11,537 nt of DNA from Flavobacteriales bacterium UBA1995. Lineage in GTDB: Bacteria > Bacteroidota > Bacteroidia > Flavobacteriales_D > Sanyastnellaceae. The stretch lies in the NCBI GenBank assembly GCA_002336475.1, contig DDCX01000130.1, positions 11,395 through 22,931 of the forward strand. Reading direction: 5' to 3'. The first letter of the stretch is position 1. The number at the start of each line of letters is the position of its first letter. This document shows positions 3,796-9,031 of the stretch, in pieces. A program made the position numbers and the translations under genes. The notes under the pieces are model-generated. The model had not been told where the DNA came from and ran no database searches. It saw nothing but the letters and a program-made list of their open reading frames with translations.

Positions 3796-4093
3796 GTCTC
3801 AAAATTCACGAATTCCATCGAGAGAATCGGTTTTTGCATCACAATGATGTGAAACCCCCCACTTCAGTGCCATTTACCCCACAAGTCAACCCTTCAAAAC
3901 ACCGGCTGTTTAGAACAGGAGTAGAAATGATGCATGGCATGAAAAGACCAAGAAATATGGCCGAAAAAGAGGGGACACGATGAAGGTGAGCTTGAATAAC
4001 TGTCACGTTTGTTCGAGATTCGATGTAAAGAAATAGACACCCGTGCAACTTTCTTTAGAGAAGAGAGCTTTCCTACTTAGAACCTTTACCGAC
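3796..4093. other. Divergent intergenic region without a recognisable gene
   Basis: About 300 nt between the secreted minus-strand gene and the large modular gene, so it should hold both promoters. It is more A/T-rich than its surroundings. The best -7-like octamer on the + strand is CACGTTTG (4004-4011), one mismatch from TAnnTTTG and without a suitably placed TTG, so I do not call it a promoter. A short inverted repeat, CATCA-CAA-TGATG, lies near 3837-3849. I see no RNA gene or coding region. Confidence 0.5.
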
Positions 4094-7000
4094 ATGAGAC
4101 ATCTCTTATTCATTGGCCTTCTGGCCTTCGGATTTCTTGGGAATGCCCAAGACGACTGCCTGTTCGAAGCAGACATTGCAATCCACACTGAATTGTGGGG
4201 CGACGAGGTATCCTGGAACCTCTTAAACGAGGACGGAGTTGTTGTGGCCAGCGGCAGCGGTTATCAAAGCAATTCCAGTGATGCTCAGACTGTATGCTTG
4301 GAAGACTCGTGTTACACATTGGAGCTACACGACAGTTTTGGTGACGGATGGAATGGCGCCACCATTTCCATCAACTATGCTGCTCTTGGTATCATGGTGG
4401 GTCCATTGACGATGGAACAAGGATCATTTGCCGCATTTTCAGTCGGGTTCAGTCCAAGCTGCGGAGGAGACCTGATCGACAGCGACGGCAATGGCGGAGG
4501 CAACACCGACATCTGGGGGTGTACGGATCCTTTGGCCCTGAATTTCGACCCCTCTGCCAATGCGGATTGTTGCTGTCAATACCCCGTTGATTGCAGCGCG
4601 AGCAACACGTTGGAAATCATCCAAGCCTCCACTGACGACTCCTTTTGGGGCTTTGGAGAATTCTATGCAATGGGTGAAGACGGCTTGTATTGGTATCCTT
4701 CCTACGGTGATTTCGACGACTCCGGACAGTTGGTACAAGGGGGCTGTATCGAAGATGGGTGCTACAACCTCACCATTCACTCCAACAACTTCTATGGATT
4801 GGAAACCACACTTGAGGTTTTCCTCAACGGAGAGCTTCTCGAAACCATCGTCATTCCTGCAGACCTAGCGGTATATGAAACGTCGTTGGGCATCAATACA
4901 GACGGATGCACCTTGTTTGTACTGGGGTGCACCGACCCCGAGGCACCAAACTATAACCCAGCAGCCACGGACGACAATGGCACTTGCTTGGAACCCTGCG
5001 ATTGCCCTGATGTCTACGATCCCGTTTGCGGCTACGATTATTACAGTGGCCAAACCCTGACCTTCAGCAACATTTGTGAACTCGAATGCGCAGAAGCTTT
5101 CTTTCAGTGGGAGGGCGATTGCAGCGAGCCACCAGTTTATGGCTGCACAGATCCAGAGGGGTTGAACTACGACCCAAATGCGACAGCAGAAAGCGGATGC
5201 CTCTACATGCCCGAGTGCGGCGAAGACCATTTGATCAGCATTTATTCGGTCAACAACCCGTTGGATTCCCTCGAGTTTGGTTGGTTCTCCCCTGTCAGCA
5301 CGTATTTCACCAATGCGACCGGCTACGTCAACACTTTTGTGGGCTTGTACGATGAAAATGGGTACGCCTCTTATGGCTGCCTCTCGGACGGATGCTACAA
5401 CTTCTACCTCGTCTCCAATGGCTTGGGCGGAGGAAGCGCAGAGGTCAGCATCGATGGAGAAGCCCCCATCACTTACACCATTGAAGACGATGCCTTCGAA
5501 GCGGTCTACGCTTTCGGTATCAATGAAACAGACTGCGAAATCTCCATCTTGGGTTGCACCGACCCAGAAGCCACCAACTACAATCCTCTGGCGACTGCGG
5601 ACGACGGCTCTTGCGTGGTGCCCTTTACCTGTGACGAGGGGGTGGCCGGCCAATTGTATGTCTGCACTTTCTCCCAAGGCAACGAGGTGGCACTGACCAT
5701 CACCGACAGCCAGGGAGAGGTACTCTACAGCCAGTCCGGTTTCCCTGACTTGACCATTGACTACATCGACGTTTGCCTTGACCCTGAAGAGTGCTATACC
5801 GCCACCATGAGCAACATTGCAGGAGGCGACTCTTGGAATGGTGGATACTTCTGGATCACAGCTGGAAACAGCGAGTGGGTCAACGGAGCTTTGTATGGAG
5901 CAACATCGGAGGACATTGAGTTTGGCTTGGCCGATGATTGTGGTGAAGACATCAGCGGAGGCAATGATCCGATTTGGGGTTGTACGGACCCCTTTGCTTT
6001 GAACTACGATGCCTTGGCGACTTACGATGATGGCAGCTGTTTCTATGACAACGTGGATACGTCCTTCGTCGATTGTGGCGACTTGAACACCGTTACGGGC
6101 CTCTTCTTCCAAGGAGGCGACCCCTTCATTGACGAGGTCAGCTGGGCCCTCCTGGATTCCACCGGCAACGCCGTGCTCATCGGACAAGGGGACAACCTCG
6201 GACCTGATGGGACACTCAGTGGCTACACCGCCTGCTTGGAGGATGGCTGCTATACCCTCGAGCTTTACGACAGCTTCGGCGACGGCTGGGGAGGTGGTCT
6301 GCTTATCCTAACCTCAGGAAACAGTGCCTTGACGTTCACGCTGGATGAGGGAGAATTTGCATCCTTCCCATTTGAAGTGGGTGCAGGATGCGGCGAAATC
6401 CTCACCATTTGGGGCTGCACCGACCCGGGCGCCACCAACTTCAACGCTGAGGCCGATGCCGAAGACGGGTCCTGTGAATACGCCTTCTGCCCATTGATCG
6501 AAGTCACGTTTGTAACCTACACCATGACAGATGGCGAAGAAGTGTCTTGGACCATGGAGGGGCTCGATGACACAACCGGGGATTCCACCTGGGTGTCTTC
6601 CAGTGCCATGGGAGATTTCGGCGCGCACACCTACACCGCTTGCATGGATGCAGGCTGCTACAGCATGACCTTGAGTGATGCCGGCAATGACGGATGGAAC
6701 CAAGGTTGGCTCGAAGTGTGGATGGACGGCGACTTAATGACCACGGCCACTTTCGACCCCAACGGTGACAACACCATGAGCTTGGGCATCGGCACCGACT
6801 GCGGGGATGCGCCTGGCGTGACCGGTGGCAACACCAACTTCGGCATGAGCGGCTGGGACGACGCCGTAGACTTTAGCATCTACCCGACCCCCACTGGAGA
6901 GATCGTAAACATCCTCGGCGAAGGTTTTGACAATGAAGCTCCCGTAGTGGTTCGCGTCAAAGACCTGATGGGCAAGCTGGTCGTGGAAAGAATCGTGCAG

Positions 7001-7120
7001 CCCCAAGACGGTCCTGCAGCATGGGTTTTTGATGTGAGCGGATGGCCCGTCGGCATCTATTCAGCCGAGGGAACCCAAGGAGACAAAGTCGCTACAGGGA
7101 AGGTGATGGTCGCGCGATGA
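4094..7120 (+). CDS. Large modular secreted protein with GCTDP repeats, Kazal-like domain and T9SS sorting domain
   Basis: 1008 residues from ATG at 4094. A GTG 51 nt upstream is in frame, but the signal peptide MRHLLFIGLLAFGFLGNAQ begins exactly at the ATG. The mature chain alternates two kinds of module. Six beta-sandwich-like units carry a C..(D)xCYxLxxxDSFGDGWNG-type signature, first at residue 68. Six GCTDP units start at residues 142, 278, 350, 487, 629 and 774. A Kazal-like cysteine domain (302-343; PDVYDPVCG and SNICELEC, six cysteines) sits between the second and third GCTDP units. Residues 927-1008 (FSIYPTPTGE, VVRVKDLMGKLV, GIYSAEG) form a type IX secretion type-A sorting domain, so the product should cross the outer membrane and be anchored or released. 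It is Asp/Glu-rich and cysteine-rich. An adhesin or surface-scaffold role is a guess. Confidence 0.9.
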   Translation: MRHLLFIGLLAFGFLGNAQDDCLFEADIAIHTELWGDEVSWNLLNEDGVVVASGSGYQSNSSDAQTVCLEDSCYTLELHDSFGDGWNGATISINYAALGIMVGPLTMEQGSFAAFSVGFSPSCGGDLIDSDGNGGGNTDIWGCTDPLALNFDPSANADCCCQYPVDCSASNTLEIIQASTDDSFWGFGEFYAMGEDGLYWYPSYGDFDDSGQLVQGGCIEDGCYNLTIHSNNFYGLETTLEVFLNGELLETIVIPADLAVYETSLGINTDGCTLFVLGCTDPEAPNYNPAATDDNGTCLEPCDCPDVYDPVCGYDYYSGQTLTFSNICELECAEAFFQWEGDCSEPPVYGCTDPEGLNYDPNATAESGCLYMPECGEDHLISIYSVNNPLDSLEFGWFSPVSTYFTNATGYVNTFVGLYDENGYASYGCLSDGCYNFYLVSNGLGGGSAEVSIDGEAPITYTIEDDAFEAVYAFGINETDCEISILGCTDPEATNYNPLATADDGSCVVPFTCDEGVAGQLYVCTFSQGNEVALTITDSQGEVLYSQSGFPDLTIDYIDVCLDPEECYTATMSNIAGGDSWNGGYFWITAGNSEWVNGALYGATSEDIEFGLADDCGEDISGGNDPIWGCTDPFALNYDALATYDDGSCFYDNVDTSFVDCGDLNTVTGLFFQGGDPFIDEVSWALLDSTGNAVLIGQGDNLGPDGTLSGYTACLEDGCYTLELYDSFGDGWGGGLLILTSGNSALTFTLDEGEFASFPFEVGAGCGEILTIWGCTDPGATNFNAEADAEDGSCEYAFCPLIEVTFVTYTMTDGEEVSWTMEGLDDTTGDSTWVSSSAMGDFGAHTYTACMDAGCYSMTLSDAGNDGWNQGWLEVWMDGDLMTTATFDPNGDNTMSLGIGTDCGDAPGVTGGNTNFGMSGWDDAVDFSIYPTPTGEIVNILGEGFDNEAPVVVRVKDLMGKLVVERIVQPQDGPAAWVFDVSGWPVGIYSAEGTQGDKVATGKVMVAR
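4517..6475 (+). repeat. Six GCTDP-type cysteine modules within the secreted protein
   Basis: Units of 60-63 nt at 4517-4576, 4925-4987, 5141-5200, 5552-5614, 5978-6040 and 6413-6475. Each encodes GCTDP, then an N-Y/F-(D/N) core, an A-T or A-D turn and a closing DDGSC-like end. The first unit ends in ADCCC and the third in ESGC, so they are degenerate. The paired Cys at start and end suggests one disulfide per unit, and the acidic core looks like a calcium-binding loop (inference). DNA identity between units is low, so they are old duplications. Confidence 0.85.
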
Positions 7121-7187
7121 CCTTGCGTTTACAAACTCTCGGTCCTTTCGCTTTACCGCGGAAAAAGGCCGCTGTAGTTTCGCGCTG

Positions 7188-7205
7188 AATACCCCTATCG
7201 GTATT
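7188..7205 (+). other. Small hairpin upstream of the RNA region
   Basis: AATACC (7188-7193) pairs with GGTATT (7200-7205) around the 6-nt loop CCTATC. No T tract follows, so it is not a terminator. It lies between the stop of the modular gene and the terminator-like hairpin and may be part of a leader or of the mRNA 3' end. Confidence 0.4.
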
Positions 7206-7211
7206 AACAAT

Positions 7212-7220
7212 TGTGGATAA
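7212..7220 (-). promoter_or_regulatory. Single consensus DnaA box (TTATCCACA)
   Basis: The minus strand reads TTATCCACA, a perfect DnaA-box nonamer. A weak second match (two mismatches, TCGTTCACA) sits at 7236-7244 on the same strand. No further boxes or A/T-rich unwinding element are seen, so this may be a chance match or a DnaA titration/regulatory site and not an origin. Confidence 0.3.
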
Positions 7221-7247
7221 CGCTTGTTACCACGTTGTGAACGACAA

Positions 7248-7279
7248 CGGACCTCCATAGGGGGTCCGTTTCGTTTTTA
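7248..7279 (+). terminator. Rho-independent terminator-like hairpin
   Basis: CGGACCTCC (7248-7256) pairs with GGGGGTCCG (7260-7268), nine pairs with one G-T wobble, around the loop ATA. It is followed by TTTCGTTTTTA (7269-7279). It lies 127 nt after the stop of the modular secreted gene and can end that transcript. The opposite strand has no T tract. Its 3' arm has a second perfect partner at 7362-7370, so it might also act as a switchable element of the RNA that follows. Confidence 0.7.
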
Positions 7280-7280
7280 T

Positions 7281-8035
7281 GCCCCACTATTGTCCTGTCA
7301 GCAACGACAACGCAGCGCTTCGGCGAGGCGACCCCTCCGGGGGTGAAGGGAAACCTTCTGTCGGACCCCCGAAAGAATGGCTTCGGCCAGGGCAGCGGGA
7401 AGAACCTCGGTTCTGTTGACCTCCAAAGCGAAAGCTGAGGAGTTGCCGACCTCCGGCGCAACGGCATCCTGAGAATGGATGGAGCCCAGCTCACCCGGGA
7501 GCAATCCCGCACCTGAACAATGGAGGCGCCGCACCCAACCGGTCTAACCGGTACTGCCTCGGCAGTGGGGGACCAAGACGAGAGTCGCGGTCATCTCTTC
7601 GGAGACAAGAGCGGTGAGTACCAAGGGTTTCGATCCGAAGTACTGAGGAAGGACTGGCCACCGAAAGGAAACCGGTCCGACATCGGGTCACCCTGTGTGA
7701 CGCGATGCGCCAAAGAGCCCAGGGACAGGCACGCCGCAAGGCAGTTGACCCCGGGATGCTTGGGCCAGAAGGGGCAACCCCGAAGGCCGACTCAGTTCGC
7801 TCGCGAATTGAACCGCGCAGTCCGCAAGGAAGGCCGGGTGCATTCAGGACAAGTCAATGGTCATTGACCACGTCAGTTCCGACGCTTTGAGGTCCAGATC
7901 GCCTTTAAAAAGGCGAAGCATGAAGAACCCCCGTTACTTCATGAGCAGGACACCCCAGGGTGGGCCATGCCTGGAAGAATCCGCATCAGAAACAGAAGGC
8001 TTCGGCCGGAAGTGGACGGTGCGGATTTCTTATTT
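7281..8035 (+). ncRNA. Candidate large structured noncoding RNA, class not recognised
   Basis: About 755 nt with no credible protein, filled with local hairpins. Tetraloop hairpins on the + strand: CGC-TTCG-GCG 7316, ACCCC-TCCG-GGGGT 7331, GAAGG-GAAA-CCTTC 7345, TGGC-TTCG-GCCA 7378, AGC-GAAA-GCT 7427, CGGGA-GCAA-TCCCG 7496, GAC-GAGA-GTC 7577 inside GACC/GGTC, TCTC-TTCG-GAGA 7594, GGGT-TTCG-ATCC 7625 inside AGTAC/GTACT, GCC-GCAA-GGC 7733. Others: 7401-7414, 7538-7552, 7553-7566, 7651-7678, a 10-pair hairpin 7681-7707, 7853-7868, 7871-7884, 7900-7915, 7919-7943. On the minus strand none of these loops is GNRA or UNCG, so transcription is +. CCCAC and TGTCCTG (7283-7297) can pair with CAGGACA and GTGGG (7946-7964), closing the molecule. 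I find no RNase P, tmRNA, SRP or group I/II intron signature. Exact ends and promoter are not evident. Confidence 0.75.
7978..8035 (+). terminator. Terminator-like hairpin ending the candidate RNA
   Basis: AATCCGCATC (7978-7987) pairs with GGTGCGGATT (8018-8027), ten pairs with one wobble. Inside is a second hairpin, GGC-TTCG-GCC (7998-8007). A T-rich run, TTTCTTATTT, follows at 8026-8035. The T run is imperfect and lies only on the + side, which supports a + strand transcript ending here, 38 nt before the stop codon of the convergent minus-strand gene. Confidence 0.6.
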
Positions 8036-8072
8036 CCCACCATTTCTATGCGGTGAGGAGCATTCTCGACGG

Positions 8073-8528
8073 TTAGGGAAGTTCTCTTTTTGCAATGCGC
8101 TCCAAAGGACCAGGACATGCCTTTTGATGGCATGAAATACAACCAGAGACTACTGAGGAATATGCTTCCGAATTGGGGTGGTCATTGAATTCCAAGATCC
8201 GCTTTTCAAAGGCAATGGCCAATGCTTGGTAACCATCCACGAGCATACTGGAGTCCGTTGGCGCCAAGTCATTCAGGTCAAATTCCGTGAAGGCCGCACC
8301 ATCCCAATCACCAACCTGTCCTAGAAACTGCGTGCGAAACCCCACCAACTCTGCATCCAAGTGACGCATAGATTCCGCCAGCGGACTGGTACGGTTGGGT
8401 TGGGTAGGTGCCAAGCGCGGCCCTGCAGAAGATGGTGATGTTCCACATCTGGCCAACACCATGGCTCCTGCTGCCAAGCAAATTACCGTCCATTGACGGC
8501 AACTGTTTGAGGGGAACTGCGCTGGCAT
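8073..8528 (-). CDS. Small exported protein with one c-type heme motif
   Basis: 151 residues from ATG at 8528 to TAA at 8073; a TTG just before the ATG is also in frame, but the ATG is preferred. The N-terminus is a signal sequence (WTVICLAAGAMVL) followed by ARCGTS; Cys28 could be lipidated, though Arg before it is unusual. Near the C-terminus CISCH (130-134) is a CxxCH heme c attachment motif, followed by an extra Cys (138) in QKACPGPLERI. The preceding helix-rich part (residues 50-125) has no second heme motif, and I see no certain distal ligand, so electron transfer or heme sensing is inferred only. The ATG overlaps the stop of the DUF4920 gene as TGATG, which indicates an operon with coupled translation. 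Confidence 0.8.
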   Translation of the reverse strand: MPAQFPSNSCRQWTVICLAAGAMVLARCGTSPSSAGPRLAPTQPNRTSPLAESMRHLDAELVGFRTQFLGQVGDWDGAAFTEFDLNDLAPTDSSMLVDGYQALAIAFEKRILEFNDHPNSEAYSSVVSGCISCHQKACPGPLERIAKRELP

Positions 8529-9031
8529 CAATCTTCGATCATCACTCCCGTAGCGGTGAATGCAAGCTGCAATTCTGGCTCGGAAATGGACGCTATGTAG
8601 GCTTCAGATTCTCCCGCGTCTTCTGCATAGTGTCGGAGCATATCCACCGTCAACGTATCGAAGAAGGCCTCCCCTTCTACTACGGTTCGTTTTCCTTCAG
8701 CCCCTTCAGTAGGAACAAAAAACCCGTAATCGAGAAAACGAACGAAGACGGTATCCTCACCTGACGCCACATCCATCCAACATCCCTTCTTGGCGCAGGT
8801 AGCGGTGATTTCTCCTTCGAAACGAACCGCAGCCCTGCCCTCATTCTCCAAAGCTGAGCGAAGACCTTGGGCGTCCACTGTCTCATCCAAGTCGATCACT
8901 GACCCGTAAAACATCTGTCCTGATTCAGCTCCTCCCTCAATTGGGGCGCTGCTACCAGCACAACCCAAACCGGTTACAATTCCGATTGCCACTGCGGCCC
9001 AAAAGGGGCCATTACCCAACACATTCATCAT
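8528..9031 (-). CDS. DUF4920 family lipoprotein
   Basis: 167 residues; the gene begins ATG-ATG at 9031/9028. Residues 5-24 are a signal peptide ending in TGLGC, a somewhat atypical lipobox with Cys24 as the likely lipidation site. The mature domain matches my memory of the DUF4920 family: an OB-like beta-rich fold with CAKKGCWM (Cys79 and Cys84), VRFLDYGFFVP (97-107), VVEGEAFFDTLTVDMLRHYAEDAG (117-140) and a closing ATGVMIED-like strand. The two cysteines may bind a metal or form a disulfide; no activity is established for the family as far as I know. It is the first gene of a pair with the downstream heme protein, suggesting a shared envelope role. Confidence 0.85.
   Translation of the reverse strand: MMNVLGNGPFWAAVAIGIVTGLGCAGSSAPIEGGAESGQMFYGSVIDLDETVDAQGLRSALENEGRAAVRFEGEITATCAKKGCWMDVASGEDTVFVRFLDYGFFVPTEGAEGKRTVVEGEAFFDTLTVDMLRHYAEDAGESEAYIASISEPELQLAFTATGVMIED

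Follow-up and report, generated by a model that had tools for sequence, protein, structure and literature searches.

An intergenic stretch of about 740 nt on the + strand of Flavobacteriales bacterium UBA1995 resembles a gene for a large folded RNA. It lies within a window of 11,537 nucleotides, by which we mean the whole stretch of DNA that was analysed, and its comparison with homologous loci supports the reading of the element as a large structured noncoding RNA outside the catalogued classes. The comparison revealed a conserved, covarying fold under selection at the RNA level, and it showed the strand, the 3′ end, the control site, the lack of any kept frame length and the changing neighbours of the element. 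We consider it probable that the element is a stand-alone gene, present at one locus per genome in its genus, for a structured noncoding RNA of about 740 nt encoded on the + strand, which has its own control site and an intrinsic terminator, is transcribed, and acts in trans as a structural molecule. The features of the locus are listed in Table 1.

Table 1. Features at and around the element (positions are those of the window)
Feature	Position	Strand	Remarks
Upstream neighbour gene	4043-7120	+	1025-aa protein
Control site	7202-7241	+	inverted pair of DnaA-box-like 9-mers, then two further TGTK boxes
GC hairpin and T tract	7247-7278	+	between control site and RNA; from the sequence and the 16-row alignment
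RNA element as aligned	7281-8035	+	genus alignment, 152-pair consensus structure
5′ hairpin	7290-7315	+	helices 2 and 3 of the 152-pair model
Loops of the five four-pair hairpins	7336 TCCG, 7350 GAAA, 7382 TTCG, 7501 GCAA, 7598 TTCG	+	
Core domain	7450-7526	+	closed by CCTC/GAGG; holds hairpin with loop TGARAAT at 7465-7481
Branched central domain, large	7706-7896	+	helices 16-26
Three 3′ hairpins	7899-7916, 7919-7943, 7945-7970	+	helices 27-29, 97-100% of cells paired
Terminator	stem 7977-8028, T tract to 8035	+	ATCCGCAYC ... GRTGCGGATTT
Downstream neighbour gene	8073-8531	–	opposite strand to the element

The 3′ boundary of the RNA at position 8035 fits the terminator stem and the T tract. 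At the 5′ end the limit is less precise: the start of the RNA probably lies somewhat inside position 7281, at an estimated 7290–7300. The GC hairpin that precedes it probably terminates the upstream gene; alternatively, it may be a leader attenuator. Hairpins of this type with a T tract were found in eight genus genomes (G000, G003, G005, G006, G009, G010, G014 and G015), and the remaining rows of the 16-row alignment have no hairpin or no T tract at this position. The upstream gene encodes a secreted protein with repeat units resembling GCTDPxAxNYNPxAxxDDGSC, and its match to a T9SS sorting tail scored slightly below the Pfam cut-off. In the downstream protein there is a CxxCH haem-binding-like motif, and Pfam gave no match.

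Hairpins, covariation and anatomy of the RNA

An earlier note on this DNA, made from the letters alone, had proposed a structured RNA on the + strand with at least five GNRA or UNCG tetraloop hairpins of four or more Watson–Crick pairs. A systematic count from 7281 to 8035 returned exactly five on the + strand (stems starting at 7331, 7345, 7378, 7496 and 7594) and none on the – strand. In 2000 dinucleotide shuffles the mean was 0.219 with a maximum of 2. When three pairs sufficed and wobble pairs were allowed, the + strand held 14 hairpins, one of them inside the terminator, and the – strand held one; the corresponding value in shuffles was 2.29 ± 1.46 (maximum 8). The strand assignment was borne out by the four-pair hairpins (5 versus 0) and by the folding energy, which reached a z-score of –6.1 relative to shuffles on the + strand (0 of 20 shuffles as good) and –1.3 on the – strand (2 of 20).

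The longest ATG-started frame on the + strand measured 115 aa in the element of the window and 45–116 aa across the other 15 genus rows. Since the frame lengths spread from 45 to 116 aa, no frame length is kept among the genus rows, and a protein-coding reading of the element was rejected for this reason. Stop-free stretches on either strand were longer in some GC-rich rows, with up to 247 codons in the genus and 302 in G120.

Alignment A1 comprised 16 rows from 15 genomes of the genus (g1), and RNAalifold yielded a consensus structure of 152 pairs. Pairing was kept in 94.9% of the pair cells, compared to 82.5 ± 0.5 in shuffles, and 80 of the 152 pairs exhibited changes on both sides (51.0 ± 3.3 in shuffles); the covariation score was 0.401 versus 0.196. 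When the partners were slid by 1 to 3 columns, 35–44% of cells remained paired, a control that is flattered because the structure came from the same alignment. For the 11 rows of a second genus, g14, a separately derived structure of 133 pairs was 96.1% paired and held 46 double-change pairs versus 24.9 ± 2.9 in shuffles, with 33–49% paired in the slid versions; as in g1, the structure was counted on the alignment from which it was derived. Covariation in homologues, which the earlier note had named as a check on its proposal, was found to be strong in g1 and again in g14.

In the 5′ hairpin, no pair had changes on both sides and covariation is silent; in the branched central domain, 8 of 11 helices had such changes. 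The core hairpin was recovered in 33 of 42 rows, from g1, g5 and g14, compared to 1 of 42 on the – strand and 52 of 8400 shuffles. It is missing in all seven g3 rows, in G129, and in G005, where the loop has one extra base. The terminator stem TCCGCA ... TGCGGATTT is identical in 26 of 26 rows of alignment A3, 8 of which had been retrieved with a pattern of this same stem. G129 shows a compensated pair change in the stem, and seven loci of g5 (L324, L327, L328, L329, L330, L331 and L334) combine the control site with a different terminator stem, CGCGGTTYTT. These observations indicate strong conservation of the stem in g1, g3 and g14 and its replacement in some of the g5 loci. Four other g5 members (G096, G103, G105 and G110) retain the TGCGGATTT-type terminator, so that two 3′ ends occur in one genus. 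Several tandem copies of a module of about 54 nt were seen by eye in the element of G120 (g3, L290:76–985), which would fit an enlargement of the RNA by domain duplication.

The upstream control site

The control site follows the frame TATnnACAATTGTKnATAACnnnTGTKnnnnnnnTGTKAA, with fixed spacing in 41 aligned loci from g1, g3, g5, g12 and g14. Its ACA, TGT, AA, GT and GT positions are kept in 41 of 41 loci, a conservation that arises partly by selection, as the rows were picked with fuzzy forms of the site. The exact form ACAATTGTKGAWAAC gave 16 matches in 14 of the 17 genus genomes, and the sites of G001, G003 and G013 are one base off. When up to two mismatches were allowed, the site was detected in 60 of 114 family genomes, representing 12 of 21 genera, and it occurred once in 56 of these genomes; this pattern had been fitted to known members (the 41-row alignment), and a stricter earlier pattern matched 2 of 114. 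The reversed pattern matched 1 of 114. Second matches were present in G125, G128 and G136. The g18 match is a chance one; the match in G060, which reads as protein-coding, was set aside as chance. At a contig end of G014 (L079:6361–6402), a second control site is followed by the first 42 bases of the element, resembling the G015 version; this partial copy is possibly a contamination.

The halves of the control site resemble the DnaA box, TTATCCACA, making DnaA a putative binder of the site. A dedicated regulator, or DnaA, may control transcription via the upstream boxes. The same likeness to DnaA boxes is what favours reading the locus as a DNA element, a replication origin or similar, whose RNA-like fold would be accidental. 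GC skew was examined on one contig of 385 kb, that of G007, which has the locus at 117 kb. Of its 77 five-kb windows, 75 were positive; the other two, starting at 145 and 160 kb, were slightly negative. There is no skew switch at the locus, which is therefore no origin in G007. As compensatory changes are, moreover, a property of RNA pairing, we regard the probability of the DNA-element reading as negligible.

Distribution in the genus, the family and beyond

DNA similarity (blastn) identified the element in 15 genomes of g1, and the upstream control site led to a diverged version in G002 and G004 that shares the core hairpin and the terminator, so that all 17 of 17 genomes carry it, each at one locus. 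The blastn matches spanned approximately the full length in seven genomes, two pieces in G009 and part of the element in the rest; the full-length element was recovered by alignment in the blastn-positive genomes. None of the 43 genomes of other genera in the same sample matched by blastn. The 15 genomes have common neighbours, some with an extra gene, and the neighbours in G004 and G002 differ from these. Of the 16 loci compared, no more than 7 shared any one protein cluster, and neighbours vary among G004/G002, the other genus members, g3/g14, and g5. These differences suggest that the element is a stand-alone RNA gene.

Three other genera of the family, g3, g5 and g14, have the element as well, and there it measures about 0.67–1.14 kb from control site to end. 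A scan of one genome per GTDB species with the terminator pattern gave at least 118 stretches, in which control site and core were then inspected. Among the matches listed were Flavobacteriales contigs, two of them titled Crocinitomicaceae; control site (up to three mismatches) and terminator occurred together on twelve Flavobacteriales contigs, including one titled Euryarchaeota, again among the matches listed. A weak control site and a terminator, without the core, were seen in L127, L175, L212 and L220 (100–175 nt apart) and in L174 (607 nt). For L132, L144 and L172, the upstream part lies outside the locus examined. The element of L146 (PBNL01000038.1), titled Euryarchaeota archaeon, is identical to that of G130; as G130 is placed in the window's own family, the title looks wrong.

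Two covariance models were applied to these groups. R1, representing the terminator domain, was built from 26 rows including 9 non-g1 members and matched 38 of the 399 order genomes searched, each of them in family f1: 17 of g1, 11 of g14, 8 of g3 and 2 of g5 (E about 1e-5). Twelve of the 38 positive genomes were absent from the training rows; ten of these have the control site within two mismatches, and G103 and G105 have only a looser form. Among 395 genomes of the phylum, R1 found G000 itself and none in other families; the filters of both searches were stricter, at the cost of weak matches. R2, the core model, was tried on 95 loci and reached a best E of 0.039 outside the genus (L146), followed by E values of 5–6 for L159 and L131, compared to 0.16–0.6 on loci without the element; L090, L121, L142, L144, L172 and L210 were not matched at E ≤ 10. 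As a proof of cross-genus homology R2 was rejected, being mostly not significant. Homology across genera thus rests on the control site, the terminator, the core hairpin and position, and not on a full alignment.

In g6, g7, g8, g9, g12, g15 and g16, the control site precedes an intergenic RNA-like region of about 0.25–0.42 kb beside a queE-like gene (eleven loci: L313, L314, L316, L317, L318, L319, L320, L312, L084, L088 and L089). The gene is called queE-like because the best NCBIfam matches of the three proteins scanned were QueE models, below their cut-offs. The stretch TTTCCATCCATGTCCACGT is identical in G021, G027 and G092 and nearly so in G030, G079 and G091. Folded singly, ten of the short regions (g16 left out) exhibited a long closing stem directly before a T run. 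A MAFFT alignment of the ten regions gave no consensus fold (energy 0.0), and an Rfam scan of nine short loci produced sub-threshold matches only. When the G091 region served as query at E ≤ 10, 22 of 22 genomes matched, nearly all by chance, and the analysis relied only on those in G027, G092 and G029. As their alignment has no consensus fold, the short regions may be either short relatives of the element or another RNA under the same control.

A queE-like gene stands downstream on the same strand at 9 of the 11 short loci, as would be expected if the RNA were a cis-acting leader, that is, a riboswitch or attenuator of a neighbouring gene. However, G027 and G092 have this gene on the opposite strand, and the neighbours of the full-size element change between the groups named above. 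In the window, a terminator closes the element and the next gene is read from the opposite strand, which makes a leader function unlikely; all in all, we consider this reading very improbable. A broader scenario would unite the short and the large forms as one RNA gene with a family-wide DnaA-type control site, present about once per genome across much of the family. From a short queE-side form (about 0.26–0.42 kb), relocated giant forms (about 0.65–1.1 kb) with bodies that cannot be aligned between genera would have arisen, and these would build RNA-only or RNA–protein assemblies under replication-linked control. We regard this scenario as speculative and rather doubtful.

Known RNA classes and proposed role

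At gathering scores, cmscan against Rfam yielded no match in the whole window, and at E ≤ 10 the region 7100–8200 gave two matches only, both on the – strand, at chance level and far below the cut-offs. The Rfam models of OLE, ROOL and GOLLD found no match at E ≤ 10, nor did those of group I introns, group II introns and RNase P in the element region; the 6S model was unmatched in the window region and in nine short loci, and ARAGORN detected neither tRNA nor tmRNA in the window. The earlier note had described an unrecognised class without RNase P, tmRNA or intron signatures, and both statements stand: Rfam matches were absent beyond the two chance-level ones, and neither Rfam nor ARAGORN found those classes in the element. 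A literature search, which covered few subscription papers, retrieved nothing on this RNA. The RNA family appears to be new and, as a kind, to join the large ornate RNAs of unknown function.

Like tmRNA and RNase P, the element is a single-copy structured RNA gene, but these RNAs have separate genes. RNase P (RF00010) gave a single match in the G000 genome, on contig C110 (189 bits) and away from the element. Elsewhere in 7 of the 17 genus genomes, tmRNA scored above the cut-off; six of these genomes have the main and one has the diverged form of the element. In G000 itself no tmRNA exceeded the cut-off, and two weak matches fall on tRNA genes. In size range and GNRA/UNCG density the element would pass for a strongly diverged tmRNA, RNase P, group II intron, OLE, ROOL or GOLLD RNA. 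With no such Rfam model matching at gathering score or at E ≤ 10, and with separate RNase P and tmRNA genes as described, we judge such an origin to be highly improbable, even more so than a leader.

Size and GNRA-rich domains are shared with group II introns, and a large, GNRA-rich RNA with many domains could be a ribozyme, whether self-cleaving, intron-derived or otherwise catalytic. However, the intron and RNase P models were unmatched at E ≤ 10, RNase P is encoded elsewhere, and the element has a control site, lies between genes in the window and ends in a terminator. A catalytic role is thus, in our estimation, quite unlikely.

A trans-acting regulatory RNA, either a 6S-like decoy of RNA polymerase or a sponge for proteins or sRNAs, would be compatible with a stand-alone gene behind possibly growth-linked control boxes, and the folds of the ten short regions that follow this site are each closed by a long stem. 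On the other hand, cmscan detected no 6S RNA in the window region or the nine short loci, and a repeated module was noticed, by eye, in G120 only. The size and branching of the element are far beyond those of 6S RNA. We consider this regulatory reading unlikely, yet less so than catalysis, and favour a structural scaffold.

OLE (Ornate Large Extremophilic) RNA is a large ornate RNA encoded by a stand-alone chromosomal gene. The element is similar in size class, ornateness and stand-alone gene; it differs in having no Rfam match, no protein cluster common to all compared loci and another bacterial group than the OLE hosts. In a Pfam scan of the ten window proteins, four scored above the cut-off, and none was recognised as an Oap-type partner protein of OLE. 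The element is most likely a structural trans-acting RNA that is comparable to OLE, ROOL and GOLLD and a member of none of them. Transcription would start near 7290–7300 under the control site and end at the RNA's own terminator. The RNA would act in trans as a folded structural molecule, perhaps a scaffold for proteins or for its own copies as in OLE, ROOL and GOLLD; the TGARAAT core hairpin and the 3′ end would be the likely sites at which it is recognised. Its presence in every genome of the genus and in three further genera argues for a house-keeping role, which we infer for the RNA. Few bacterial RNAs of such size and complexity have been described. The diverse homologues suffice for a consensus structure, and the control site offers an entry to regulation.

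With ROOL and GOLLD the element shares a large, multi-branched and tetraloop-rich architecture. OLE, ROOL and GOLLD, three large RNAs with solved structures, form homo-oligomers, two of which are cages larger than the ribosome; GOLLD combines a conserved 3′ part with a variable 5′ part, and GOLLD and ROOL are encoded in phages or prophages, often near tRNA islands (PMC12286853). The element differs in that the window contains no tRNA and that phage or plasmid records had no match to it. Among 38 pattern matches on viral contigs, the core was found in none, and the two with a terminator had no control site. A phage or plasmid origin was rejected on the grounds of the empty record searches and the viral matches without core, and a phage origin is unlikely. 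In G029 (g14), a tRNA-like sequence follows shortly after the element.
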